A DNA stretch of 38,114 nucleotides. Source: Clostridia bacterium. Its GTDB lineage: Bacteria; Bacillota; Clostridia; Christensenellales; Aristaeellaceae. The number at the start of each line of letters is the position of its first letter. Positions within the stretch are counted from its first letter, which is position 1. Location: positions 1 through 38,114 of the forward strand of contig JAFSGG010000109.1 of NCBI GenBank assembly GCA_017434775.1, in the 5' to 3' direction. This document shows positions 6,171-37,529 of the stretch, piece by piece. Under the pieces are notes generated by a model. That model saw only the letters and a program-made list of their open reading frames with translations, was not told where the DNA came from and searched no databases. Both the position numbers and the translations under genes were made by a program.

Positions 6171-9100
6171 GTGGCTAAACATAAAAGACGCAGGCGCTTT
6201 GGCGGCGCAATGGGCGCTCGGCTGCCTTTGATCCTGGGGCTGATCGGCGTGCTGGTTTTCCTGATCATTATCGCGCCCAAAGGCTCCCGGAAGATTCCCG
6301 GGCAGGGAATCCGCATCAGCGAAGTGATGTCTGACAATGCCAGCGCCTATCCGGACGAAAGAGGTGCTTTCGGCGATTGGATCGAATTGGAAAATTGCTC
6401 CAATGAAACCATCTCTCTGGATGGCGTGGGCCTGTCCGACCGGGAAGACCGCATCTATTTTGTTTTCCCGGACGGGATGGAACTGCCGGCAGGCGGGCGG
6501 ATTTGCGTGTTTGCGGATGATACCAGCAAGGACGTGCCCGGCAACACCATGCATGCCAAGTTCCGCATTTCCGGCAAGGAAGGGGAAACTTTGTACCTGA
6601 CCCGGGGCGGCATGATTATCCAGAAAGTGCAGCTGCCCAGCATGAACCCGGATGAAAGCTACGCCCTGATGGAAGAAACCGGTGTGTTTGAAAGAACGTA
6701 TCTTTATTCCCCCGGCTATCCCAACAGCGCCGGCGGTCATTCCGCCTATAAGGAAAACTTTTATGTGCCCCGCGGTCAGCTGATGATTTCCGAAATTATG
6801 CCTTCTCCCCGCGGCCCTGTGAGCCGGGACGGGGATGGAGATGTGAGCGACTGGGTGGAATTGTATAACGCCAGCAATGAAGATATCAGCCTGGGCATGA
6901 TGGCCCTCAGCGATGATCCTTCCAAGCCCATCAAGTGGATTTTTCCGGAAAATGCGGTGATTAAGGCCGGCGGCTATTATCTGGTGTATTGCTCCGGTAA
7001 GGATATCATCGATCAGAAAGGTTTCCCCCATACCAATTTTTCCATCAACAGCCAGGAAGAAACCCTGGTGCTGACCACCCTGGCCGGCGAACAGATTGAT
7101 CGGGTGACGGTGCGAAACCTGGACAAGGATACCAGCTGGGGATTGAACCCCGATGACCTGTCCCAATGGCAGGTGTATACCGAGCCTACCCCCGGCCATC
7201 CCAATAATGATCTGGGAAAGGCCAAGGCCGATGAGTACATGCGGGGCATCAATTATTCCGGCGTGTATGTGACGGAAGTGATGGCTTCCTCCGCATTGAT
7301 CGTCCCTTTTCCAGGTATGGCAGCCTGTGACTATGTGGAAATTTACAACAGCTCCGCTCAGCCGGTGGATCTTTCCGGCTGGGGGCTGAGCGATAATATC
7401 GGGTGGCCCTTGAAATGGACGTTTCCGCAGGGGACGTCCATTTTTCCCGGTGAATATAAGGTGATTATGCTGGATGGATCGGAGGAACCCGGCAATAACG
7501 CCAACAGGCTGCACGCTTCTTTCAGCCTGGCCCGCGCCGGCGGGGAAGTGATCACCTTTTCCGATGCAAACGGCTATATTCTGGATAAGATTTATCTGCC
7601 CGAAATTCCTACGGATATATCCTTTGGCAGAACGCTGGGGGTCAATGGCTTTTTTTATTACGACGCCCCCACGCCCGGTGCGGCCAATGGCCATGGTTTT
7701 TCCGGGTTTTCCGCCCGGCCGACGTTCAGCCAGCCCAGCGGTTTATATCACGGCAATATAACCGTAACCATTGATGTGCCGGCCAATACCACGGTGCGCT
7801 ATACTCTGGACGGTTCCATTCCCACCATTGATAACGGATTCATCTACTATCCCGGCTGTCCGGATCTGACCGATTTTTCCGATACCAAAGTGGTGCGCGC
7901 CCGGGCTTTCCAGGCTGGCATGCAGCCCTCCGAAACGGTAACGGTATCCTACATTGTCAATAAGTATCATCAGATGGACGTGGTATCCCTGGTGTGCGAT
8001 CCCTTTGAACTGTGGGATGAAAAGACCGGCTTGCTCTCCGATGCGCCGGACCTGAAGTATTACGACGATCCGTCCACCGCTGTGGTGAACAAGGAAAAAA
8101 TCCCTTTCAAAACGCCGGTGTACCGCAACTGGGGTAAAATTGACCGGCCCGGCTATGTGGAATTGTTCCACTACGATTCCGGGGAGGCCTACATTTCGCA
8201 GGGCATTAAGATGGACCTGATGGGTGCATACAGCCTGGATATGCCCCAAAAATCCTTCAAAATCCGGGCGCAGGCAGCCTATGGCGCCAAGTATTTCGAT
8301 TATCCCCTTTTTGACGACCGGGAATACACCTTCTATAAATCCTTCACCCTGCGCAATTCTGGTAACGATAATGTGTGGACCCGTCTGGCTGATGGATTCC
8401 AGACAAGATTGGTGGACCGGTATCTGGATCAGGACGTGATGATGACCCTGGCCTGGCGGCCTGTGGCGGTTTACCTGAACGGTGTTTACTGGGGGCATTA
8501 CAATCTGCGCGAAAGAAAAGACCGCTTCTCCATCGCTCAGTTTGAAGGGGTGGACCTGGAAGACAAGGAAACCCTGGAAGCCATCACCATCCTTCGTGCC
8601 AATTCGGAAGTGGTGCAGGGCAATAACACCGAATACCTGGCTATGCGCAAGGAAATCGACACCTTGTCGCCCAATACCAGGCCGGAGGATCTGCAATACC
8701 TCTATGATCACATCGACATTGACAACTATATCGAATGGTTTGCGGTGAAGATGTTCTTTGGCGATTCTGACCCCGGTAACATCATGTTCTACAAAATGCC
8801 GGGCGAGGGCAGCAAATGGAAATGTCTGCTGTTTGACCTGGACTACGGCCTGTACAATTCCGAATTTGAAAGCCCCAGAAGCTATCTCAAGCCAGCCGGT
8901 ATGGGTGACCAGAAGATCAATAACGTGATCTTCCGCAAGATGATGGAATCTGACGAAATCCGGGATAAATTCCTGACCCGCCTGGGGCAGATTTTCCAGA
9001 CCCTCACCACCGATACCATGCTGGCGGAATTGGATATTTGCGTTGCCATGATCGAGCCGGAACTGACCATGCACTATGGCCGCTGGGCCCAGTACAAGGA

Positions 9101-9329
9101 ACCGGCCATCAATGTGGATTCGCCCACGTCGCCGGAAGGCTATGAACGCTACTGGAAAACCCGTGTGGATCGTCTGCGGAACGTTATTTGCAAACGTCCC
9201 CATTTCCTGTGGAAGTTTGTGAAGCAGCAGTTTGGCCTGAGCGATGCGGAAATGATCCATTACTTCGGTGAACAACCGCCCTATCTTGTATGGGAAGATG
9301 GGCAGAAGAAATTGTATAGTGGAAAATAA
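6171..9329 (+). CDS. Membrane-anchored lamin-tail / CotH kinase protein
   Basis: This 1052-residue protein has a basic N-terminus, one membrane segment near 17-36 and a large exterior part. Three lamin-tail domains begin near residues 46 (ISEVMSDNASAY), 202 (MISEIMPSPRG) and 364 (YVTEVMASS), each with a D-W/Y-I/V-E-L/I-N/Y motif. A chitobiase-like beta domain with RYTLDGSIPT follows near 515-570. The CotH domain covers about 604-1000; its GDSDPGNIMFYK (about 864) and DLDYGL (about 890) match the metal and ATP site of spore-coat CotH, an atypical protein kinase. The GTG start was chosen because AAGGAGG lies at 6159-6165; upstream ATG codons lack a ribosome binding site. It is followed 12 nt later by the DUF4956 gene. 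Targets are unknown. Confidence 0.85.
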   Translation: MAKHKRRRRFGGAMGARLPLILGLIGVLVFLIIIAPKGSRKIPGQGIRISEVMSDNASAYPDERGAFGDWIELENCSNETISLDGVGLSDREDRIYFVFPDGMELPAGGRICVFADDTSKDVPGNTMHAKFRISGKEGETLYLTRGGMIIQKVQLPSMNPDESYALMEETGVFERTYLYSPGYPNSAGGHSAYKENFYVPRGQLMISEIMPSPRGPVSRDGDGDVSDWVELYNASNEDISLGMMALSDDPSKPIKWIFPENAVIKAGGYYLVYCSGKDIIDQKGFPHTNFSINSQEETLVLTTLAGEQIDRVTVRNLDKDTSWGLNPDDLSQWQVYTEPTPGHPNNDLGKAKADEYMRGINYSGVYVTEVMASSALIVPFPGMAACDYVEIYNSSAQPVDLSGWGLSDNIGWPLKWTFPQGTSIFPGEYKVIMLDGSEEPGNNANRLHASFSLARAGGEVITFSDANGYILDKIYLPEIPTDISFGRTLGVNGFFYYDAPTPGAANGHGFSGFSARPTFSQPSGLYHGNITVTIDVPANTTVRYTLDGSIPTIDNGFIYYPGCPDLTDFSDTKVVRARAFQAGMQPSETVTVSYIVNKYHQMDVVSLVCDPFELWDEKTGLLSDAPDLKYYDDPSTAVVNKEKIPFKTPVYRNWGKIDRPGYVELFHYDSGEAYISQGIKMDLMGAYSLDMPQKSFKIRAQAAYGAKYFDYPLFDDREYTFYKSFTLRNSGNDNVWTRLADGFQTRLVDRYLDQDVMMTLAWRPVAVYLNGVYWGHYNLRERKDRFSIAQFEGVDLEDKETLEAITILRANSEVVQGNNTEYLAMRKEIDTLSPNTRPEDLQYLYDHIDIDNYIEWFAVKMFFGDSDPGNIMFYKMPGEGSKWKCLLFDLDYGLYNSEFESPRSYLKPAGMGDQKINNVIFRKMMESDEIRDKFLTRLGQIFQTLTTDTMLAELDICVAMIEPELTMHYGRWAQYKEPAINVDSPTSPEGYERYWKTRVDRLRNVICKRPHFLWKFVKQQFGLSDAEMIHYFGEQPPYLVWEDGQKKLYSGK

Positions 9330-9341
9330 GGAGGAAGAATC

Positions 9342-10043
9342 ATGAATGAAGAACTGAAGACCATAGGCGCTATTTTTAACGGTGAAATTTCCTTTGCGCA
9401 GTGGTTTGAAGGCCAGTTTGAAAAGATTCTGCTGGTGGACGTGCTGGTGGCCCTGCTGGCGGCTTTTGTGGTGGGTTCCGTGATTGCCATGGTGTATAAA
9501 AAAACCTACCGCGGTGTGCTCTACAGCCCCTCCTTCGGCCTGACGCTACTGATGCTCACCATGATCACCACCCCCATTGTTATGGGTATCCGAACTTCCG
9601 TTACGTTGTCCATGGGTATGGTGGGCGCGCTGTCCATCGTGCGTTTCCGTACCGCTGTGAAGGATCCCCTGGATACGGCTTATATGTTCTGGGCGCTGAC
9701 CATGGGCATCCTGCTGGGCGCCAATGTGTATGTGGTGGCGCTGGTGGCCATGGTTATCATTGGCGGCACCATGCTGCTTATTTCCTACAAGCGGCTGCAG
9801 AGCCCCAACGGCTATCTGCTGGTGCTGCATCATGATGAATTTGCCCAGATGGATATCGAAAACGAACTGCGTCGCAGCGTGCGTTACTTCCGTGTACGCT
9901 CCAAGACCGTTACCCGCAACGGCAGCGAAACCACGGTGGAAGTGCGGCTGGATCGCCGGGTGAACATCGTGTCCAATATGCTGGAAATCAATGGCGTGCA
10001 CGAAGCCACGCTGGTGGCCTGCCAGATGGAAGCGGGGGCGTAA
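9342..10043 (+). CDS. DUF4956 integral membrane protein
   Basis: This 233-residue protein fits the DUF4956 family. About four membrane segments occupy roughly residues 28-145, with the conserved short motif GALSIVRFRTAVKDP after the third segment. A soluble C-terminal domain of about 80 residues contains a ferredoxin-like strand pattern. The biochemical function of the family is not established. It is translated from an AAGGAGG-driven ATG 12 nt after the CotH gene and ends 3 nt before the VTC-domain gene, so the three form one transcription unit. The context suggests that it couples a cytoplasmic polyphosphate enzyme to the membrane or to the exterior CotH protein; this is inference. Confidence 0.85.
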   Translation: MNEELKTIGAIFNGEISFAQWFEGQFEKILLVDVLVALLAAFVVGSVIAMVYKKTYRGVLYSPSFGLTLLMLTMITTPIVMGIRTSVTLSMGMVGALSIVRFRTAVKDPLDTAYMFWALTMGILLGANVYVVALVAMVIIGGTMLLISYKRLQSPNGYLLVLHHDEFAQMDIENELRRSVRYFRVRSKTVTRNGSETTVEVRLDRRVNIVSNMLEINGVHEATLVACQMEAGA

Positions 10044-10046
10044 AAG

Positions 10047-10751
10047 ATGGCGCTGCCTCTTCGCCACGAACTGAAATTCCTCATTTCCGATATGCAGTAC
10101 CGGGTGCTCAAAAGTGTGCTGACCCCTGTGCTGCATCTGGATAAGAACGCTGTGAAAAACGGCGGGTCTTATCATATCCGTTCTTTGTATTTTGACACCG
10201 CATTTGATGATGCCTATTATGACAAAATGGACGGTGTGAAAGACCGGAACAAATACCGCATCCGCATCTATAACCTGAAAGATACGGAAGTTTTCATGGA
10301 ATGCAAAACCAAGGTGGGCGCGCTTATTTCCAAGCGTACGGTGGAAATCGGTCGGGAAATGGCGGAGCAGATTATTGCCGGGGATCCCACCGGGCTACAG
10401 AGAACCCGCTATGGACTGCTGGGCGATGTGTACCGGGAAATGCGGACGAATCTTTTGCATCCGGTTGTGATTGTGGACTATGAACGGGAAGCGTATCTGC
10501 ATCCGGCGGAGGAGGTGCGCATTACCTTCGATAAGCATCTGCGCACGGGCCTGAACAGTATCGATCTTTTCAACCCTTATGTGCCCACCATCCCCGTGTT
10601 TGATGATGCACAGAACATGGTGCTGGAAGTGAAGTACAACCGCATTTTGCCCCCCTATCTTGCCGATCTTCTTTCTTTTGCCATTGGCGGTGAAGCTGTC
10701 CAGCAGGCTGTATCCAAATACACGCTTTGCCGGCGGTATGAACAAAAGTGA
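10047..10751 (+). CDS. VTC-domain polyphosphate polymerase-like protein
   Basis: This 234-residue protein is a compact VTC domain, a member of the triphosphate tunnel metalloenzyme superfamily. The tunnel residues are visible: RHELKF near residue 5, YFDTAFDD, KYRIRIYN, ECKTK, ISKRTVE, a Tyr-rich VIVDYEREAY, RITFDKHLR and a closing LEVKYNR. In yeast, Vtc4 uses this domain to make polyphosphate from ATP. Bacterial copies are often encoded next to DUF4956 and CotH genes, as here. The start ATG is only 3 nt after the preceding stop, so translation is probably coupled. Whether it polymerises phosphate or hydrolyses triphosphate cannot be told from sequence alone. Confidence 0.88.
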   Translation: MALPLRHELKFLISDMQYRVLKSVLTPVLHLDKNAVKNGGSYHIRSLYFDTAFDDAYYDKMDGVKDRNKYRIRIYNLKDTEVFMECKTKVGALISKRTVEIGREMAEQIIAGDPTGLQRTRYGLLGDVYREMRTNLLHPVVIVDYEREAYLHPAEEVRITFDKHLRTGLNSIDLFNPYVPTIPVFDDAQNMVLEVKYNRILPPYLADLLSFAIGGEAVQQAVSKYTLCRRYEQK

Positions 10752-31171: not shown

Positions 31172-31990
31172 ATGCGCATTTGCAGAGGCAAACGGATGGC
31201 CTGTGTATTTCTTTCACTGTTGATATTCCTGTTCGTTTCTGTAGCTACGCTGGCAGCTGTGTGGCCGGATATGTCCGGCAGCGGCGTCAGGAAAAAAGAC
31301 GGGGCGCTGGATGTAAATTACGAGCATGCATCGGAAGGCTATGTGCTTGTAAAGGGCGGAAAATCAAAAAAACGGCTGAAATTGCGTGTGCGCCAGGGGG
31401 AACATTCCGTCACCTATGATCTGGGTACAAACAACGAATACGAAGTGATTCCGCTGCAGTTTGGCAACGGCAAATATCAGCTCAATCTGTACAAACAGAT
31501 TTCCGGCAGCCGGTATTCCGAAGAAGGCGTGGTTTCTTTCAAGGTGGAAATGGAAGATGTAAACAATGCTTTCCTCTATCCCAACCAATACATTCGTTAC
31601 GATGAAAACAGCCTGGCGGTGCAAAAAGCCAACGAGCTATGCCGGGGGGTTACGGATGAAAATGAAAAGTATAAAATTATTACGGAATATATTCTGCACA
31701 GTTTTGTGTATGATTATGTACGTGCAGTGACCACCAAGGGGGATGGCCAGCCGGATGTGGATTATTGTCTGCAGCATGGCATGGGCATCTGTCAGGATCT
31801 TTCTTCCACGACGGTATGTATGCTCCGCTCCCAGGGCATTCCGGCCAAGCTGGTGATCGGCAAGGCAAACGGGCAATACCATGCCTGGGTGCAGGTCACC
31901 CTGAACGGAGAAGAAAAATTGTTTGACCCCACGGCTATTTTGCAGAATATGCCGCAGCCGGTCAAATATGCGGTTGAACGTTGGTATTGA
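31172..31990 (+). CDS. Exported transglutaminase-like protein
   Basis: This 272-residue protein has an N-terminal signal or anchor segment (residues 9-30, MACVFLSLLIFLFVSVAT), a beta-rich region and a papain-like transglutaminase core near 160-260. The catalytic triad is visible: Cys in HGMGICQDLSSTT, His in QYHAWVQV and Asp in EKLFDPTA. In bacteria such proteins act as cysteine peptidases or cross-linkers at the cell surface. The start at 31172 was chosen because of AAAGGAAG upstream; an earlier ATG at 31112 overlaps the promoter. It ends 13 nt before the GspF-type gene, with GGAGGA in the gap, so it appears to belong to the pilus-like operon. Confidence 0.85.
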   Translation: MRICRGKRMACVFLSLLIFLFVSVATLAAVWPDMSGSGVRKKDGALDVNYEHASEGYVLVKGGKSKKRLKLRVRQGEHSVTYDLGTNNEYEVIPLQFGNGKYQLNLYKQISGSRYSEEGVVSFKVEMEDVNNAFLYPNQYIRYDENSLAVQKANELCRGVTDENEKYKIITEYILHSFVYDYVRAVTTKGDGQPDVDYCLQHGMGICQDLSSTTVCMLRSQGIPAKLVIGKANGQYHAWVQVTLNGEEKLFDPTAILQNMPQPVKYAVERWY

Positions 31991-32003
31991 GGAGGACTGT
32001 TCC

Positions 32004-33056
32004 ATGAAAGACAGGAAAAAACAAAACGTTATGACGGCACTGGAACTGAGCAATTTTTGCAGCCAGATGTCGCTGATGCTCCGGGCCGGTATGCCGCTGG
32101 AGACGGGCCTGGAAGTAATGGCCGCCAAGAAAGAGAATAAAGAAAGCAGCGTTTATGCCCGGATGCATGCGAATATGCAGCAGTACGGTAATCTGTACGA
32201 AGCCATGAAAGCGGAAAGCGCTTTCCCTGAATATCTGGTGGAAATGACCGGTATCGGTGAAAGAACCGGTCATTTGGAAGACGTGATGCGGGGCATGACG
32301 GCGTATTATGAGCGGGAATCCCGGATGAAGGATGCCGTACGCAATGCCATCACCTATCCTTTGGTATTGGGCGGAATGCTGCTGTTGATTGTGCTGATCC
32401 TTTTGTGGAAGGTGCTTCCGGTATTCCGCCGGGTGCTCAGCAGCATGGGCGTGGCGGCTTCCGAAACCAGCAGCAGCCTGATGCAGCTGGGCGCCACCAT
32501 CGGCTGGATTGTGCTGGCAGTGGTGGGCGTGGCGCTGCTTTCGGTGATTGTGTGTCTGGTGCTGCTGAAAACACCGCTGAAAGACAAGCTGATGCGCTTT
32601 CTGCGCAAAATGATTCCGGCCATGGGTGATCTTTCCATGCGCGTTTCCGGGTCCCGGGTGGCTTCCGTTCTGTCCATGATGCTCAGCAGCGGCTTCCTGA
32701 TGGAAGATGCTCTGGAAACAGTGCCCCGGGTGCTGGATGATGCGGAAGCGGTGAAAAAGGTACAGGCTGTCAGCGATAAAATCAATCAGGGGGAAATGTT
32801 CTCCGATGCGGTGGCGGCATCCGGTTTGTTTGATGATTTGCATACCCGCCTTTTGCAGACGGGTGTGATGACGGGCAGTGAAGATCTTGTAATGGAAAAA
32901 ATCGCAGCCACGTATGAAGAAGAAACGGAAAACAGCATTGCCCGGATTGTGGCCATCATTGAACCCACGGTGGTGGCGCTGCTCAGCGTTGTGATCGGTG
33001 CTGTGCTTTTGTCTGTGATGCTGCCGATGGCCAGCATTCTCACCGGTCTTTTGTAA
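32004..33056 (+). CDS. GspF/PilC-type inner membrane platform protein
   Basis: This 350-residue protein has two tandem T2SSF domains (about 11-130 and 215-335). Each begins with an F-x-x-Q/M-S-x-M-L-R/S-G pattern: FCSQMSLMLRAGMPLETGLE and VASVLSMMLSSGFLMEDALE. Three hydrophobic segments follow (about 115-140, 165-192 and 320-345), as in PilC and ComGB. In type IV filament systems this protein couples the motor ATPase to pilin assembly or removal. The start was set at 32004 because GGAGGA lies 7 nt upstream. Four small single-pass genes and a PilT-like ATPase follow in the same direction. Confidence 0.92.
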   Translation: MKDRKKQNVMTALELSNFCSQMSLMLRAGMPLETGLEVMAAKKENKESSVYARMHANMQQYGNLYEAMKAESAFPEYLVEMTGIGERTGHLEDVMRGMTAYYERESRMKDAVRNAITYPLVLGGMLLLIVLILLWKVLPVFRRVLSSMGVAASETSSSLMQLGATIGWIVLAVVGVALLSVIVCLVLLKTPLKDKLMRFLRKMIPAMGDLSMRVSGSRVASVLSMMLSSGFLMEDALETVPRVLDDAEAVKKVQAVSDKINQGEMFSDAVAASGLFDDLHTRLLQTGVMTGSEDLVMEKIAATYEEETENSIARIVAIIEPTVVALLSVVIGAVLLSVMLPMASILTGLL

Positions 33057-33103
33057 TTATTAATTATTAAAATGAAAAATAAGAAAGAAAGGAGAGGTGC
33101 TCT

Positions 33104-33412
33104 GTGAGCGTGAAAAAAATCATTGCGCTGGCTTTGGTGATGGTTGTGCTGCTGGCCGGATCGGTATTGGTTATCAATAGCATGGTTTCTGCCGGGGATG
33201 CCGGGGAAGTGCGGATGGTGCAGGATGCGGTGAAGAATGCGGCGCTCACCTGCTTTGCCGTGGAAGGCGCCTTTCCTTATGATCTGGATTACCTGCGGGA
33301 AAACTACGGCCTTGCCTATGATGAAGAAAAGTATCATGTGCTGTATGAGGCGTTTGCTTCCAACCAGATGCCCGAAATCCGGGTAACGATTCGGGGGGAT
33401 GGCCTGATATGA
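33104..33412 (+). CDS. Small single-pass pilin-like protein
   Basis: This 102-residue protein has an N-terminal hydrophobic helix (residues 6-27) and a short exterior part. The stretch VQDAVKNAALTCFAVEGAFPYDLDYL resembles the pseudopilin pattern of an alpha helix followed by G-x-(Y/F)-P-x-x-L, split at the conserved EGAFP. It has no class III prepilin cleavage site (G/A-F-x-x-x-E). The start is GTG at 33104 with GGAGAGG 6 nt upstream; a second GTG two codons later is possible. Its stop overlaps the next start (ATGA). It is probably the major or minor subunit of the small filament-like system. Confidence 0.7.
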   Translation: MSVKKIIALALVMVVLLAGSVLVINSMVSAGDAGEVRMVQDAVKNAALTCFAVEGAFPYDLDYLRENYGLAYDEEKYHVLYEAFASNQMPEIRVTIRGDGLI

Positions 33413-33897
33413 CAAATAAAATAGAACGCAGTTTTTCCATCCAGAATATGTTTGTGATTCTGGTACTGGCCGTTTTCCTGGTATTTTCCATGCTGATGGT
33501 GGTGCTGGGGGCTATGTGCTATGTGGGGCTGGAGGACAAGTCCCGGGAAGTGAATGATCAGCGTATTTTGCAGTCCTTTGTTCGCAGTTCCCTGCGCGCC
33601 CAGGAGGAAAATGCCGTTGTGCGGGTGGAAAATGATTGGCTGATCATCGAAAACAATTACGACGGGGATATTTATCTGCACTATATCTATGCCCATGACG
33701 GGCAGCTGCGGCAGCAGTTCATTTCGGAAGAAAGAGAATTTGTGCCCGAAAACGGGGAAGCGATCTGCCCGGCCGGGCTGTTTGCGCCGCAATTGGAAGG
33801 CAGTTTGCTGAAGTTGGATATGCAGGATGGTAACGGTAACGGCTATACCCTGTATGAAACCGTGGTTGTTGCCCGTCCGGAAGGAGGCAGCCTATGA
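33409..33897 (+). CDS. DUF4860-like single-pass protein
   Basis: This 162-residue protein has one membrane helix at about 14-38 (MFVILVLAVFLVFSMLMVVLG) preceded by a basic N-terminus, then a soluble exterior domain with YIYAHDGQLRQQF. The layout and motifs match DUF4860 proteins that I associate with pilus-like clusters of Clostridia. It starts inside the stop of the preceding gene (ATGA) and ends the same way with the next, so the run is tightly coupled. There is no prepilin peptidase signal. Function is unknown. Confidence 0.7.
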   Translation: MTNKIERSFSIQNMFVILVLAVFLVFSMLMVVLGAMCYVGLEDKSREVNDQRILQSFVRSSLRAQEENAVVRVENDWLIIENNYDGDIYLHYIYAHDGQLRQQFISEEREFVPENGEAICPAGLFAPQLEGSLLKLDMQDGNGNGYTLYETVVVARPEGGSL

Positions 33898-34319
33898 AAA
33901 AAAGTCAGGGCATGAATGCTCTTTTGATTGAATTGGTCATTGTGCTGTTTTTCTTCATTCTATCCTTTACCGTGCTGGCGCAGGTGTATGCCTATGCCTA
34001 CCGGACGGAAAATAACACGGCACTGCAATCGGAAGCGCTGTTTGAAGCCCGCAATCTCTGTGCCCGGCTGCGTGTACAGGAAGATCCGGAACGGTTTTTG
34101 CAGGCAGAAGCGGCGAAAAAAACGGAAAATGGCTATATTTTTGCCTGTGACGGCTATGAACTGCTGGTTGCCTGTGAACCGGAACAGATGGAAAGCGGTA
34201 TCTATTACCGCATCCGTGTGGATGCCCGGCAGGGGGAAAACCCGCTGTGGATGCCGGACGGAGAAGCTATTTTCCTGAACGCATCTGTGTATGTACCGGA
34301 GGTGAACAGCCATGAATAA
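33894..34319 (+). CDS. Pilin-like membrane protein
   Basis: This 141-residue protein has one N-terminal helix (about 9-33) in the form GMNALLIELVIVLFFFIL. It is the closest of the four small proteins to a prepilin N-terminus, because it has Gly6 followed by a hydrophobic run containing Glu13. The Glu is at +7 rather than the usual +5, so cleavage by a standard prepilin peptidase is doubtful. A soluble domain with CDGYELLVACEPEQ follows. It overlaps its neighbours by 4 nt upstream and 8 nt downstream. It is probably a minor pseudopilin of the operon. Confidence 0.65.
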   Translation: MKKSQGMNALLIELVIVLFFFILSFTVLAQVYAYAYRTENNTALQSEALFEARNLCARLRVQEDPERFLQAEAAKKTENGYIFACDGYELLVACEPEQMESGIYYRIRVDARQGENPLWMPDGEAIFLNASVYVPEVNSHE

Positions 34320-34749
34320 ACGCTTCAGGATGAGCCCCGGTGCCCCTTCGCTGGTACTGATTATTGTGGTGCTCAGTATGAGCATCATGGGCATGCTGAT
34401 GTTTATCCGTACTCAGAATGACCGGCGGCTGTCAGACCGCAGTATGCTGGTGGCCCAGGCGGATACCCGGCTTGGGGAGAAAGCGGAAGAACGCTTTGCT
34501 GCCCTTGACAATCTGGCGGCAATCTGTAAAAATAAGACAAATGACGATGCGGCCTGGCTGCTGGCGGTGGAAGAAGCATTGCCGGAAGAAATGGAAATGG
34601 AGGATCGCCTCATTTCCTGGCAGGAAGAAGACCATGGTCGGGTATTGTATGTGGCCGCGGAGCTTTGCCCGTATGAAGATACACAGCGGATCACCTGGCA
34701 TACCAGAACATTGTATGCAGAAGTGGGGAACACATGGAACGAGTTTTGA
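34312..34749 (+). CDS. Small single-pass protein of the pilus-like operon
   Basis: This 145-residue protein has a basic N-terminus (MNKRFRM), one hydrophobic helix at about 13-32 and a mixed soluble domain with two Cys (ICKNKT and LCPYED). No family was recognised and there is no prepilin motif. Start and stop overlap the neighbouring genes (8 nt upstream, 16 nt downstream), so translation is coupled. Its size and topology resemble the GspK/GspJ minor pseudopilin slot or PilX-like accessory proteins of other systems; this is inferred from position only. Confidence 0.6.
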   Translation: MNKRFRMSPGAPSLVLIIVVLSMSIMGMLMFIRTQNDRRLSDRSMLVAQADTRLGEKAEERFAALDNLAAICKNKTNDDAAWLLAVEEALPEEMEMEDRLISWQEEDHGRVLYVAAELCPYEDTQRITWHTRTLYAEVGNTWNEF

Positions 34750-35789
34750 GTTTGTTGCGCAAAGCGCTGGAAAAAGGCGGATCGGATATCTTTATTATTC
34801 CCGGTTCGCCGGTGATGGTAAAAGCCGGGGGAAAAATGTGCCCGCTGGAAGAAGAACGGCTCAATCCCCAGGGGACGGCAGCCCTGATTGAAATGATCTA
34901 TCAGATTGCCAGACGCAGCATGAACCATCTGGAAGCCAATGGCGATGACGATTTTTCCTTCTCCGTAGTAGACCTGAGTCGGTTTCGCTGCAATGCGTAC
35001 CGCCAGCGCGGTACCCTGGCGGCTACCTGCCGTGTGGTTACCTTTGGTCTGCCGGACCCCGGCAAGCTTCATATTCCTTCCCAGGTGACGGACCTGGCCG
35101 ATATGCGAAGCGGCATGGTGCTGGTCACCGGTCCGGCCGGCAGCGGCAAGAGCACTACGCTGGCTTGCCTTGTGGATAAGATCAATAACAGCCGCTCCGG
35201 TCATATTGTCACCATTGAAGATCCCATCGAATATCTCCATTCGCACCGGCAATCCCTGGTGAGCCAGCGCGAAGTGCCGGACGATGCGCCCACCTTCCCC
35301 CTGGCCCTGCGTTCAGCGCTGCGTCAGGCGCCGGACGTGATTATGCTGGGGGAAATGCGCGATACAGAAACCATCCGCACCGCTATTTCCGCAGCGGAAA
35401 CGGGGCATCTGCTGCTGTCCTCCCTGCACACCATTGGCGCAGCGAAAACCATTGACCGCATCATTGACGCCTTCCCGGCGGAACAGCAGCATCAGATTCG
35501 CATGCAATTATCCATGGTTTTAAGGGCTGTGGTGTCTCAACGGCTGCTTCCAAAAAAAGACGGCGGTCTCATACCGGTCTATGAAGTGATGATTGTGAAC
35601 CCGGCTGCCCAGAATCTGATCCGCGAAAACCGCACCCATCAGCTGGATAATGTGATTGCCGGCGGTCAGGCGATGGGCATGCTGTCCATGGCCAGAGAAC
35701 TGGATAAACTGGTGCGGGAAGGGCTTATCACCCGGGAAACCGCAGCCATGTATACCGAAACCAAGGAAACACCCAAGCCCCGCCTGTAA
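34734..35789 (+). CDS. PilT-like type IV filament ATPase
   Basis: This 351-residue hexameric-type ATPase has an N-terminal PAS-like region (about 1-100) with KGGSDIFIIPGSPV. The Walker A motif GPAGSGKSTTLACL is at about 133-146, the Asp box IEDPIEYLHS near 162, Walker B VIMLGEMRDTETI near 202 and the His box SSLHTIGAAKTIDRI near 228. The C-terminal AAQNLIRENRTHQL resembles the retraction-motif region of PilT (AIRNLIRE). It is PilT-like rather than GspE/PilB-like: it is short, lacks the N1 and tetra-Cys zinc domains and has the LIRE motif. No second motor ATPase is in the operon. It starts 16 nt inside the previous gene. Confidence 0.9.
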   Translation: MERVLSLLRKALEKGGSDIFIIPGSPVMVKAGGKMCPLEEERLNPQGTAALIEMIYQIARRSMNHLEANGDDDFSFSVVDLSRFRCNAYRQRGTLAATCRVVTFGLPDPGKLHIPSQVTDLADMRSGMVLVTGPAGSGKSTTLACLVDKINNSRSGHIVTIEDPIEYLHSHRQSLVSQREVPDDAPTFPLALRSALRQAPDVIMLGEMRDTETIRTAISAAETGHLLLSSLHTIGAAKTIDRIIDAFPAEQQHQIRMQLSMVLRAVVSQRLLPKKDGGLIPVYEVMIVNPAAQNLIRENRTHQLDNVIAGGQAMGMLSMARELDKLVREGLITRETAAMYTETKETPKPRL

Positions 35790-35817
35790 TAGCGGTGCAT
35801 AAAGGAGGAAGAAACGT

Positions 35818-37029
35818 ATGGGCGATACCATCCGTATTCAGCTGATGGACACTTTTAATGTTTATATTAATGAACGCAAAGAGGAACATCTGGCGAAAAA
35901 ATCCAGAAAAGGCGTCAGTTTGATGCAGTATCTGATGCTGAACCGGGGCCAGCCTGTGCCCAATTATCGCTTGCTTGTGACCTTGTGGTCCGATGAGGGC
36001 AGCGCCAACCCTGAAAACGCACTGAAGACGCTGGTGAGCCGTCTGCGCGCCATTCTGAACCAGATTACGCCGGGTTTCGGCAATTGCATTGTGGCGGACC
36101 GGGGGGCGTATCACTGGGAAATGCTGCCGGGCATGACGGTGGATTATTATCAGATTGAGGAACTTTTTGATGAATTGGGCGAACTGCGGGATGATCAGCC
36201 GGAGCTGATTGAGCGCTATGAAAAACTGTTGGTGCTCTATAAGGGTGACCTTTTGCAAAACTGTGAACAGAATGTGTGGGCGCTGGCCCAGGCCACCAGC
36301 CTGCACAATAAATACATGTCTGCCATTTATTCTTATATTGAGCTGCTCAAGAGCCGGGAAAACTATCAGGATATCATCCGGGTGTGCCGGATGGCCCTGA
36401 ATGTGGATAATTTTGATGACCGCTTGCACATGGAACTGATGACAGCCCTGATTCACACCAACAGAACCAATGAAGCGCTGGTGCAGTATAAGCATGTGAC
36501 GCACCTCAATTACCGCTACCTTGGCGTACAGCCCAGCGAAGATATGCAGGAATTCTATAAGCAGATTGTCCGGGCTGGCAAAACACTGGAATTCAGTCTG
36601 GAAGGCATCCGCAATGAGCTGCGGGAAAGCGGCGAGCAGCGGGGTGCATTCGTGTGCGAATACGCTGTTTTCAAGGAAATCTATAACCTGCAGATGCGCA
36701 ATCTGGAGCGATTGGGTTCCACGATGTTCCTGGGTGTGATTATGGTGGGCAATCCCGAAGATCCCACCATGGATTCCATCAAACAGGACAATATTATGAA
36801 CGGCACCCTGGAAATTCTGAAAAACAACCTGCGAAAAGGGGATACCATCACCCATTTTTCCCCCACCATTTTTGCCCTTTTGCTGCCTACGGTGAACTAT
36901 AGTACCGGCAATATGGTCATGGAACGGGTGAAGCAGCTTTTCTACAAAAAGTTCCCCAATTCCAATATTCCCTTCAATTATCGCATCGGCCCGCTGAGCA
37001 GCCGTATGGAACCGGAAGAATCGGTTTAA
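35818..37029 (+). CDS. BTAD (SARP-like) regulator with degenerate GGDEF-like tail
   Basis: This 403-residue protein has a winged-helix DNA-binding domain at about 5-95 (IRIQLMDTFNVYINE through ADRGAYHWE), then a helical BTAD domain at about 105-250 (VDYYQIEELFD, YKGDLLQNCEQNVWAL, RLHMELMTALIHTNRTNEAL). The C-terminal 120 residues follow the GGDEF pattern: LKNNLRKGDTITHFSPTIFALLLP, split at the position where GGDEF would be and where SPTIF stands instead. It should bind DNA but not make cyclic di-GMP. The AAAGGAGG site lies upstream, 28 nt after the PilT-like gene, so it is probably the last gene of that operon and may control it or the downstream promoters. Confidence 0.85.
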   Translation: MGDTIRIQLMDTFNVYINERKEEHLAKKSRKGVSLMQYLMLNRGQPVPNYRLLVTLWSDEGSANPENALKTLVSRLRAILNQITPGFGNCIVADRGAYHWEMLPGMTVDYYQIEELFDELGELRDDQPELIERYEKLLVLYKGDLLQNCEQNVWALAQATSLHNKYMSAIYSYIELLKSRENYQDIIRVCRMALNVDNFDDRLHMELMTALIHTNRTNEALVQYKHVTHLNYRYLGVQPSEDMQEFYKQIVRAGKTLEFSLEGIRNELRESGEQRGAFVCEYAVFKEIYNLQMRNLERLGSTMFLGVIMVGNPEDPTMDSIKQDNIMNGTLEILKNNLRKGDTITHFSPTIFALLLPTVNYSTGNMVMERVKQLFYKKFPNSNIPFNYRIGPLSSRMEPEESV

Positions 37030-37159: not shown

Positions 37160-37489
37160 ATGAAGAACGCTTTTCAGAAGATGATTTTGATCCTGTTGGC
37201 CGTTGTGATGCTGGCCGGTATTTTTACCATTGCTTTTGCTGAAGATGCGGTTCAGCCCGGAAATGAATCCATTTCTATCAAGCGGCAGGGCAGCGGCGAT
37301 ATTTATTTCGGCGATGAAGTAACGCTCTGTGCTTATGTGAATAACGTTGTCGGCGATTATTCTGTGGTCTGGGAACGCTACACACCCGATGGATGGATCA
37401 AAGTCGGCTCCGGTATGACGTACACCTTCACCGTGACGGATACCACGGCGGCTTCCGATTTCCGCGCCATGCTGGTGCTGGCGGACTGA
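37160..37489 (+). CDS. Small secreted Ig-like protein
   Basis: This 109-residue protein has a clear signal peptide (hydrophobic core 8-24, cleavage after AFA near residue 27). The mature chain of about 80 residues is a beta-rich sandwich with DEVTLCAYVNNV, YSVVWERYTPDGWIKVG and YTFTVTDTTAASDFRAML, an immunoglobulin-like pattern with W and C at typical places. No family was recognised. AAAGGAG precedes the ATG. It has its own promoter with TGTAAC repeats and its own terminator, so it is expressed as a single gene next to the BTAD regulator. It could be a filament-associated or surface product; this is inference. Confidence 0.75.
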   Translation: MKNAFQKMILILLAVVMLAGIFTIAFAEDAVQPGNESISIKRQGSGDIYFGDEVTLCAYVNNVVGDYSVVWERYTPDGWIKVGSGMTYTFTVTDTTAASDFRAMLVLAD

Positions 37490-37502
37490 AATATTCATCA
37501 GC

Positions 37503-37529
37503 AGCGTTAGTGACTCACTAACGCTTTTT
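37503..37529 (+). terminator. Intrinsic terminator after the small secreted protein
   Basis: AGCGTTAG and CTAACGCT form an 8-bp stem around TGACTCA (itself nearly self-complementary), followed by TTTT. Confidence 0.9.

Follow-up and report, generated by a model that had tools for sequence, protein, structure and literature searches.

The window analysed here is the whole 38,114-nucleotide stretch of contig JAFSGG010000109.1 from the Clostridia bacterium assembly GCA_017434775.1 (family Aristaeellaceae), and corresponds to contig C106 of a 2.26 Mb assembly that is 77% complete. It carries a compact locus related to type IV filament machines, composed of a transglutaminase-fold protein (TGase), a GspF/PilC platform, four small single-pass proteins (s1 to s4) and a PilT-family ATPase, followed by a BTAD regulator (Table 1). 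All genes named in an earlier sequence-only reading of this DNA were found on the plus strand by open reading frame (ORF) listing and Pfam and TIGR profile matches, in the order TGase-GspF-s1-s2-s3-s4-PilT and then BTAD. Neighbouring genes from s1 through PilT share 4 to 16 bases. A ribosome-binding-like AAGGAAG lies 5' of the TGase start at 31172, and the GspF start was set by its GAGGAGG-ATG context. In the window's assembly, GspF and the ATPase were the only PF00482 and PF00437 matches over cut-off, and PilT was the only strong T2SSE-type match.

Table 1. Features of the locus in the window (positions counted from its first letter).
Feature	Position	Strand	Basis or context
TGase, exported or membrane-anchored	31172..31990	+	PF01841, 58.6 bits
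GspF/PilC platform, two T2SSF domains	32004..33056	+	PF00482, 142.3 bits, 2 stretches
s1, single-pass pilin-like, signature C[YF]AxEGx[YF]P, without prepilin site	33104..33412	+	BLASTP to L244 prepilin
s2, DUF4860, pilin globular domain on non-prepilin N-terminus	33409..33897	+	PF16152, 41.4 bits (cut-off 25)
s3, minor-pilin-like, NALLIELV: Asn replaces Gly-1, Glu5 kept	33894..34319	+	alignment, hhalign
s4, GspK/PilX-like, Gly before hydrophobic stretch, without Glu5	34312..34749	+	alignment, hhalign
PilT-family ATPase	34734..35789	+	TIGR01420, 406 bits (cut-off 319)
BTAD (SARP-like) regulator	35818..37029	+	PF03704, 70.6 bits
Small secreted-looking protein	37160..37489	+	ORF; homologues after BTAD in near relatives L091-L093
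Terminator-like hairpin	37503-37525		3' of small secreted-looking protein

The locus was searched for in 120 genomes of the window's family, sampled evenly from a larger set; all but the window's own were at least 90% complete. DUF4860, the domain of s2, was present in 56 of them, and GspF over cut-off in 57, including all 56 DUF4860 carriers. The 57 stretches fetched made, with the window, 58 loci, of which one with an orphan PilT (L103) was excluded, leaving 57 to be counted. Single-sequence queries with s1 to s4 matched 53 to 57 of the 58 loci (E-values of profile searches over loci refer to small local sets). After profile building, the order from TGase to PilT was kept exactly in 51/57 family loci, window included, so that the co-location of the seven genes exceeds chance. 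The six inexact loci comprised L050 and L065 (no TGase found), L053 (split GspF), L061 (over-long PilT frame), L066 (neither PilT nor TGase found) and L105 (contig end). In L053 (G070), GspF was split into frames of 176 and 204 aa, the other operon genes being intact, and G025 carried two locus copies, L066 and L082, only one of them without PilT and TGase. Script-called frames began at the first start codon, which made some lengths too long (L061 PilT, 517 aa; L104 s1, 164 aa).

The same order was exact in 67/80 loci from public records, these being the best 80 of 592 relatives by s1 pattern, a set that overlaps the family sample. In 11 of the 13 inexact loci the cause seems to be a short contig or a contig end, a split gene or a frame called too long; the other two were without PilT (L167) or TGase (L182). 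The records were mostly titled Clostridia or Clostridiales bacterium (69/80), and many came from the gut of goats, sheep, deer or buffalo. In eight pairs of family loci, the ratio of nonsynonymous to synonymous substitution rates (dN/dS) ranged from 0.00 to 0.44 over the seven genes (PilT, 0.02-0.13; s1, 0.00-0.29), with some dS values exceeding 1, near saturation. In these pairs the seven genes are under purifying selection.

The locus ATPase was assigned to PilT. Besides scoring over the TIGR01420 cut-off, the window protein possessed Walker A, Asp box, Walker B, His box and AIRNLIRE-like motifs (the regular expressions used were too strict for misses to count as evidence of lost motifs) and fell on the PilT side of a 66-row ATPase tree in which PilB/GspE separated at 100/100. 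The PilTs of loci of this kind grouped together (96/92) and away from those of the full pilus systems of genus g13; deeper PilT branches were weaker (82/56, 89/65), and some long branches were flagged. The excluded locus L103 (8284-9465, G033) holds an orphan PilT of the window-type clade with altered Walker B and His box, in a genome without GspF over cut-off, and is probably a remnant.

The four small proteins are, judged by sequence comparison, pilin-derived. Window s1 matched the prepilin at L244:7433-7951, itself over the N_methyl cut-off, with a BLASTP E-value of 6e-8 over 45 residues. When aligned by hhalign to relatives with prepilin-type starts, s1 reached 94.6% probability (31 columns only), s2 99.4% to relatives carrying DUF4860 and N_methyl, s3 96.5% to GFTLIE relatives, and s4 91.6% to the s4 of L245. 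In L241 and L244, DUF4860 and N_methyl occurred in one protein, both over cut-off; DUF4860 is accordingly a pilin globular domain, which gives this family an identity. N_methyl at E<=1 was found in none of 81 members of s1, s3 and s4 (27 each; s2 was not scanned singly), and the single weak Pfam matches were PilX_N in one s1 and one s4 member and ComGE in one s3 member, with a weak DUF4690 match in 11 of 27 s4 members. Sequence searches of the PDB gave no match for s1, three weak matches for s2 (none a pilin), five weak matches for s3 at E up to 1 (four named pilins and one 'Uncharacterized protein') and five weak, unrelated matches for s4.

The sequence-only reading had seen no prepilins. This stands for the usual prepilin signal, which is gone from s1-s3, but not for the proteins, which are pilin-derived. 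Among the 57 family loci, s3 kept Glu5 in all and Gly at position -1 (Gly-1) in none; residue -1 was Asn in 52, Lys in 2, and Ser, Asp and Arg in one each. Gly-1 was missing from s3 even in the 11 family genomes that have both PilB and an A24 prepilin peptidase. In s4, a Gly (G10) before the hydrophobic stretch was invariant in 27/27 aligned sequences, without Glu5. With no prepilin site in s1-s3, the subunits are probably uncleaved, as had been proposed.

The other parts of a pilus system were rare among the carriers. PilB-size PF00437 scores (at least 427 bits) were obtained in 12/120 family genomes (G022 and eleven of genus g13), 11 of which were DUF4860 carriers, and in none of the remaining 45/56 carriers, with at most 14 candidates scored per genome. 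Among these 45, 44 had one PF00437 match above 60 bits and G040 had two. A24 (PF01478) exceeded its cut-off in 13/120 genomes, namely the 12 PilB genomes and the marginal G091, whose match reached 26.9 bits with neighbours and 23.1 as a protein (below cut-off). No A24 match at E<=0.001 was found in 43/56 carriers, the window's genome included; the search detected the peptidase in 12/14 control genomes. The G091 match is a weakly A24-like membrane protein overlapping a gene labelled by eye as radical-SAM-like (L197:5159-7098) and does not resemble a locus for a pilus peptidase. The locus with one PilT was also present in the one-contig genomes G100 and G110 and the two-contig genomes G060 and G082, in which neither PilB nor A24 was found. 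Outside the family, G250 (one contig, 100% complete) carried the locus with its PilT as the only PF00437 match of note and no A24 match. PilM was considered as a hidden part of the machine and rejected, scores above 33.3 bits being confined to the 12 PilB genomes and other matches being weak. As G104 had PilB and A24 without DUF4860, the two systems are separable. These counts bear out the earlier suggestion that PilT is the only motor, and most family carriers hold no PilB or A24 elsewhere. The two outcomes that the sequence-only reading had named as refuting, an unconserved gene order and a complete pil/com set elsewhere that uses these genes, did not occur.

Beyond the family, DUF4860 was detected at E<=0.001 in 29/293 genomes of the class, counting that of the window; 27 of these exceeded the cut-off, and the exceptions were G258 (locus L245) and G222 (locus L246). 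The loci of the other 28 genomes form a series. L244 and L245 have PilB-PilT-GspF followed by relatives of s1 and s2 with GFTLIE-type starts; in L245, s1, s2 and s3 passed the N_methyl cut-off, and in L244 the second s1 copy and s2 passed while the first s1 copy failed. L242 and L243 kept PilT-GspF-s1-s4 with a canonical s3 (Ala-1 in L243). In families f9 and f71, PilT came last where found (none in L238), s3 was canonical, s1 was without the motif, and several s2 retained Gly-1 and Glu5. In the other 14 loci, here called motif-poor (f27, f57, f61, f68, f51, f3, f53), the motif was lost from s1 and s2, and s3 kept Glu5 in 14/14. Read most simply, these intermediate operons would record how a full pilus operon lost its parts one step at a time. 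Within the system group of the ATPase tree, L242-L245 stood together (100/99) beside the rest, f71 and f9 came next, and the motif-poor loci and the window's family formed one group (100/100). A quick GspF tree without bootstrap also joined motif-poor loci and family (99), with f9 next, and separated these from f71, f37, L244/L245 and the full systems; f37 was not grouped with L244/L245, and the L246 (very long) and E. coli rows were long. The two trees are broadly in agreement.

L246 (G222, 7504-10266) comprised GspF and s1-s4, and the whole 1.8 Mb genome gave no PF00437 match, a barer form in which no motor was found. In L219, L220 and L221 (G311, G142, G276), the operon had no local PilT, and a PilT-size ATPase match lay about 40 kb away on the other strand of the same contig.

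The TGase was a frequent partner of these genes, occurring in 53/57 family loci and in 16 of the 28 stretches, up to 17.5 kb long, that were fetched from other families. Its triad C227, H257 and D272 (numbered from the 31112 start) was invariant in 26/26 aligned sequences, and it carries its own N-terminal hydrophobic segment. In L245 it immediately precedes PilB; the prepilin sites of that operon are intact, and its genome (G258) has A24. The stretches fetched for nine f9 loci and for L242, L244 and L246 showed no TGase. Its place beside the PilB operon of L245 and its apparent absence from f9 indicate an old, optional partner. The idea that the TGase originated as a replacement for the prepilin peptidase was rejected, as L245 combines it with intact prepilin sites. 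It may cross-link, as the sequence-only reading had suggested for the subunits, or it may cut or act in some other way.

We regard it as probable that the locus encodes a PilT-driven, membrane-anchored pseudopilus of uncleaved pilins, that is, a reduced and stably inherited derivative of type IV filaments. This agrees with the sequence-only reading, which had proposed a reduced filament or pseudopilus machine, in that platform, PilT and pilin-derived subunits were found in conserved order. Sequences and trees support descent from an operon of PilB, PilT, PilC and pilins, from which PilB and the cleavage sites of s1-s3 have disappeared in this lineage, most family carriers being also without an A24 match, and in which PilT, PilC/GspF, four pilin-derived subunits and usually the TGase have been retained under purifying selection. 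As uncleaved s1-s3 would keep cytoplasmic N-terminal tails, they would not be drawn from the membrane like mature pilins. On the GspF platform they may instead assemble into a pseudopilus or a tip-like complex that is short and stays anchored in the membrane. The PilT hexamer, unopposed by an extension motor, might turn or reset this complex, which could serve the envelope as a piston, valve or load sensor. The exported TGase would act near it, and the output may be to display or handle wall proteins or to sense surfaces. A machine with PilT as its only motor is made plausible by the requirement of PilT for extension of the MSHA pilus in Vibrio cholerae, there alongside its own extension motor, according to the available text of PMC9815625, and by the single bifunctional ATPase of Tad systems described in an excerpt of PMC12019362.

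Several observations weigh against this interpretation. Some A24 match (E<=0.001) was present in 13/56 family carriers and in 23/28 carriers outside the family (11 with canonical s3, 11 motif-poor, and G139). Among the genomes with canonical-s3 loci, A24 was found in 11/13 and was unseen in the fragmented G183 and G303, whose genus-mates have it. Among those with motif-poor loci it was found in 11/14, each with another secretion ATPase above 180 bits, so that the peptidase could be explained there by other systems; it was not found in G250, G329 and G222. Two of the 14 motif-poor loci (L222 and L230) had an s3 with both Gly-1 and Glu5, and G329, the genome of L230, gave no A24 match. The Asn at -1 of family s3 could be a cut site for another enzyme, and the Gly of s4 could still be one. 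Absence from metagenome-assembled genomes is also weaker than from closed genomes, the window's own being incomplete, and the PilB search was limited by the number of candidates scored.

Among known systems, the type IVa pilus of monoderm Clostridia is homologous in PilT, PilC/GspF and pilin families, and the PilB operons of L244 and L245 hold prepilins related to s1 and s2 (in L245 also s3 and s4); unlike it, 45/56 family carriers have neither PilB nor a convincing PilM. MSH pilus loci also have no prepilin peptidase of their own in the available text of PMC6668835, but may borrow that of another system in the genome (same source), whereas most family carriers show none to borrow. Tad pili resemble the locus in that one ATPase acts alone (excerpt of PMC12019362), and differ in that CpaF/TadA is another ATPase family and TadV cuts the Flp pilins (excerpt of PMC3244431). 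According to a 2023 review, every type IV filament system has its pilin(s), a prepilin peptidase, an extension ATPase and a platform (PMC10191384, available part), and the ATPase and peptidase are listed among the conserved proteins of Gram-positive pilus operons in the consulted section of PMC3244431. A figure legend there marks some pilins as having no cleavage site, so that single siteless pilins are not new. Among the four core features tested, the platform was found, and the extension ATPase, A24 and the prepilin signal were not, the pilins being represented by homology with the signal absent in s1-s3; with three of four failing, the locus is not called a type IV pilus here. No description of it was found in the literature searched, which covers few subscription papers, and the term 'DUF4860' was absent there.

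There is an even chance, in our estimate, that the locus represents an ATP-driven machine of the type IV filament superfamily without extension ATPase or prepilin peptidase, in which PilT alone would move membrane-anchored uncleaved pilins on PilC, conserved in many families of Clostridia and coupled in most cases to an exported TGase. The locus looks functional and widespread although most family carriers are without peptidase and extension ATPase. It would thereby challenge the view that an assembly motor, a pilin-cutting enzyme and cut sites are always needed, and it opens to experiment the roles of PilT and PilC in the absence of PilB and the question whether a machine can work uncleaved pilins.

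The kept Glu5 and the prevalent Asn-1 of s3, as if a site were retained, could alternatively point to a real surface filament whose subunits are cut by a non-A24 protease (a signal peptidase or a TGase-fold cysteine peptidase) and which PilT both extends and retracts. The invariant TGase triad fits this possibility, as do the MSHA and Tad precedents. It is nevertheless unlikely, as no obvious replacement site was visible by eye in s1 and s2 (no systematic search was made), and the combination of TGase, intact prepilin sites and A24 in L245/G258 indicates that the TGase did not arise as a peptidase substitute.

The frequency of the TGase would also suit a type II secretion system (T2SS)-like endopilus that delivers or wall-anchors the TGase or other secreted proteins, with a GspF-type platform and minor-pseudopilin-like proteins resembling the T2SS core, and s4 and GspK both being without Glu5. 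We consider this improbable: no GspE match was found (the genome-wide searches did not extend to secretin or GspL/M), A24 is missing from most family carriers, and the TGase, which carries a hydrophobic segment of its own, was not found in the f9, L242, L244, L246, L050, L065 and L066 stretches.

A Com-like machine for DNA uptake is very unlikely. Com pili (ComGA-ComGG, ComC) are minimal type IV filaments of monoderms according to an excerpt of PMC10790768, and share with the locus a monoderm host, a single operon, one ATPase, one platform and several small pilins. Their ATPase ComGA is an extension ATPase, whereas the locus motor is a PilT, to which the ComGA model gave only 125 bits against a cut-off of 300. 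Moreover, all Com pilins are processed, with ComC as the cutting enzyme (same excerpt), whereas the locus has no usual site and the window's genome no A24 match. ComEC was found in 52/56 carriers, with none found in the other 4, and was equally common in non-carriers (60/64), and a link to competence was rejected for want of association.

That the genes simply serve a complete pil/com system whose other genes lie elsewhere is hardly tenable: PilB does occur in 11/56 family carriers, and most of the 28 carriers in other families have another secretion ATPase and A24, but PilB was missing from the other 45, the one-contig genomes G100, G110 and G250 contradict the idea, and in genus g13 the locus sits beside a separate PilB-PilT-PilC-PilM set whose PilT falls in another clade. 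An old type IV pilus in decay, to which the loss of several core parts, the patchy presence (56/120) and the decay in single genomes (L103, L053) might point, is contradicted by purifying selection and by seven intact genes in fixed order across many genera with TGase triad and window ATPase motifs kept, and can practically be dismissed.

Concerning the flanks, the BTAD regulator, listed among the operon genes in the sequence-only reading, is present at 19/57 family loci and is a frequent neighbour outside the conserved core. Its C-terminus is weakly GGDEF-like (PF00990, E=0.12), perhaps a degenerate nucleotide-sensing domain. The small secreted-looking protein is possibly the last gene of the unit. 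Clustering of flanking genes, with cluster names taken from Pfam on nine representatives, gave a GGDEF-containing similarity cluster touching 27 loci and an Hpt-like one touching 11, in variable placement and with no background rate computed. Genes of GGDEF, EAL, response-regulator, HD and Hpt types lay near several loci (for example L055:3509-6601, L101:3374-6085 and L061:10194-10538). These GGDEF, EAL and Hpt neighbours give a weak hint of signalling. Some of the genes are of response regulator-EAL-GGDEF type, and in L055 and L101 the neighbour lay 40 and 17 bases after PilT, respectively.

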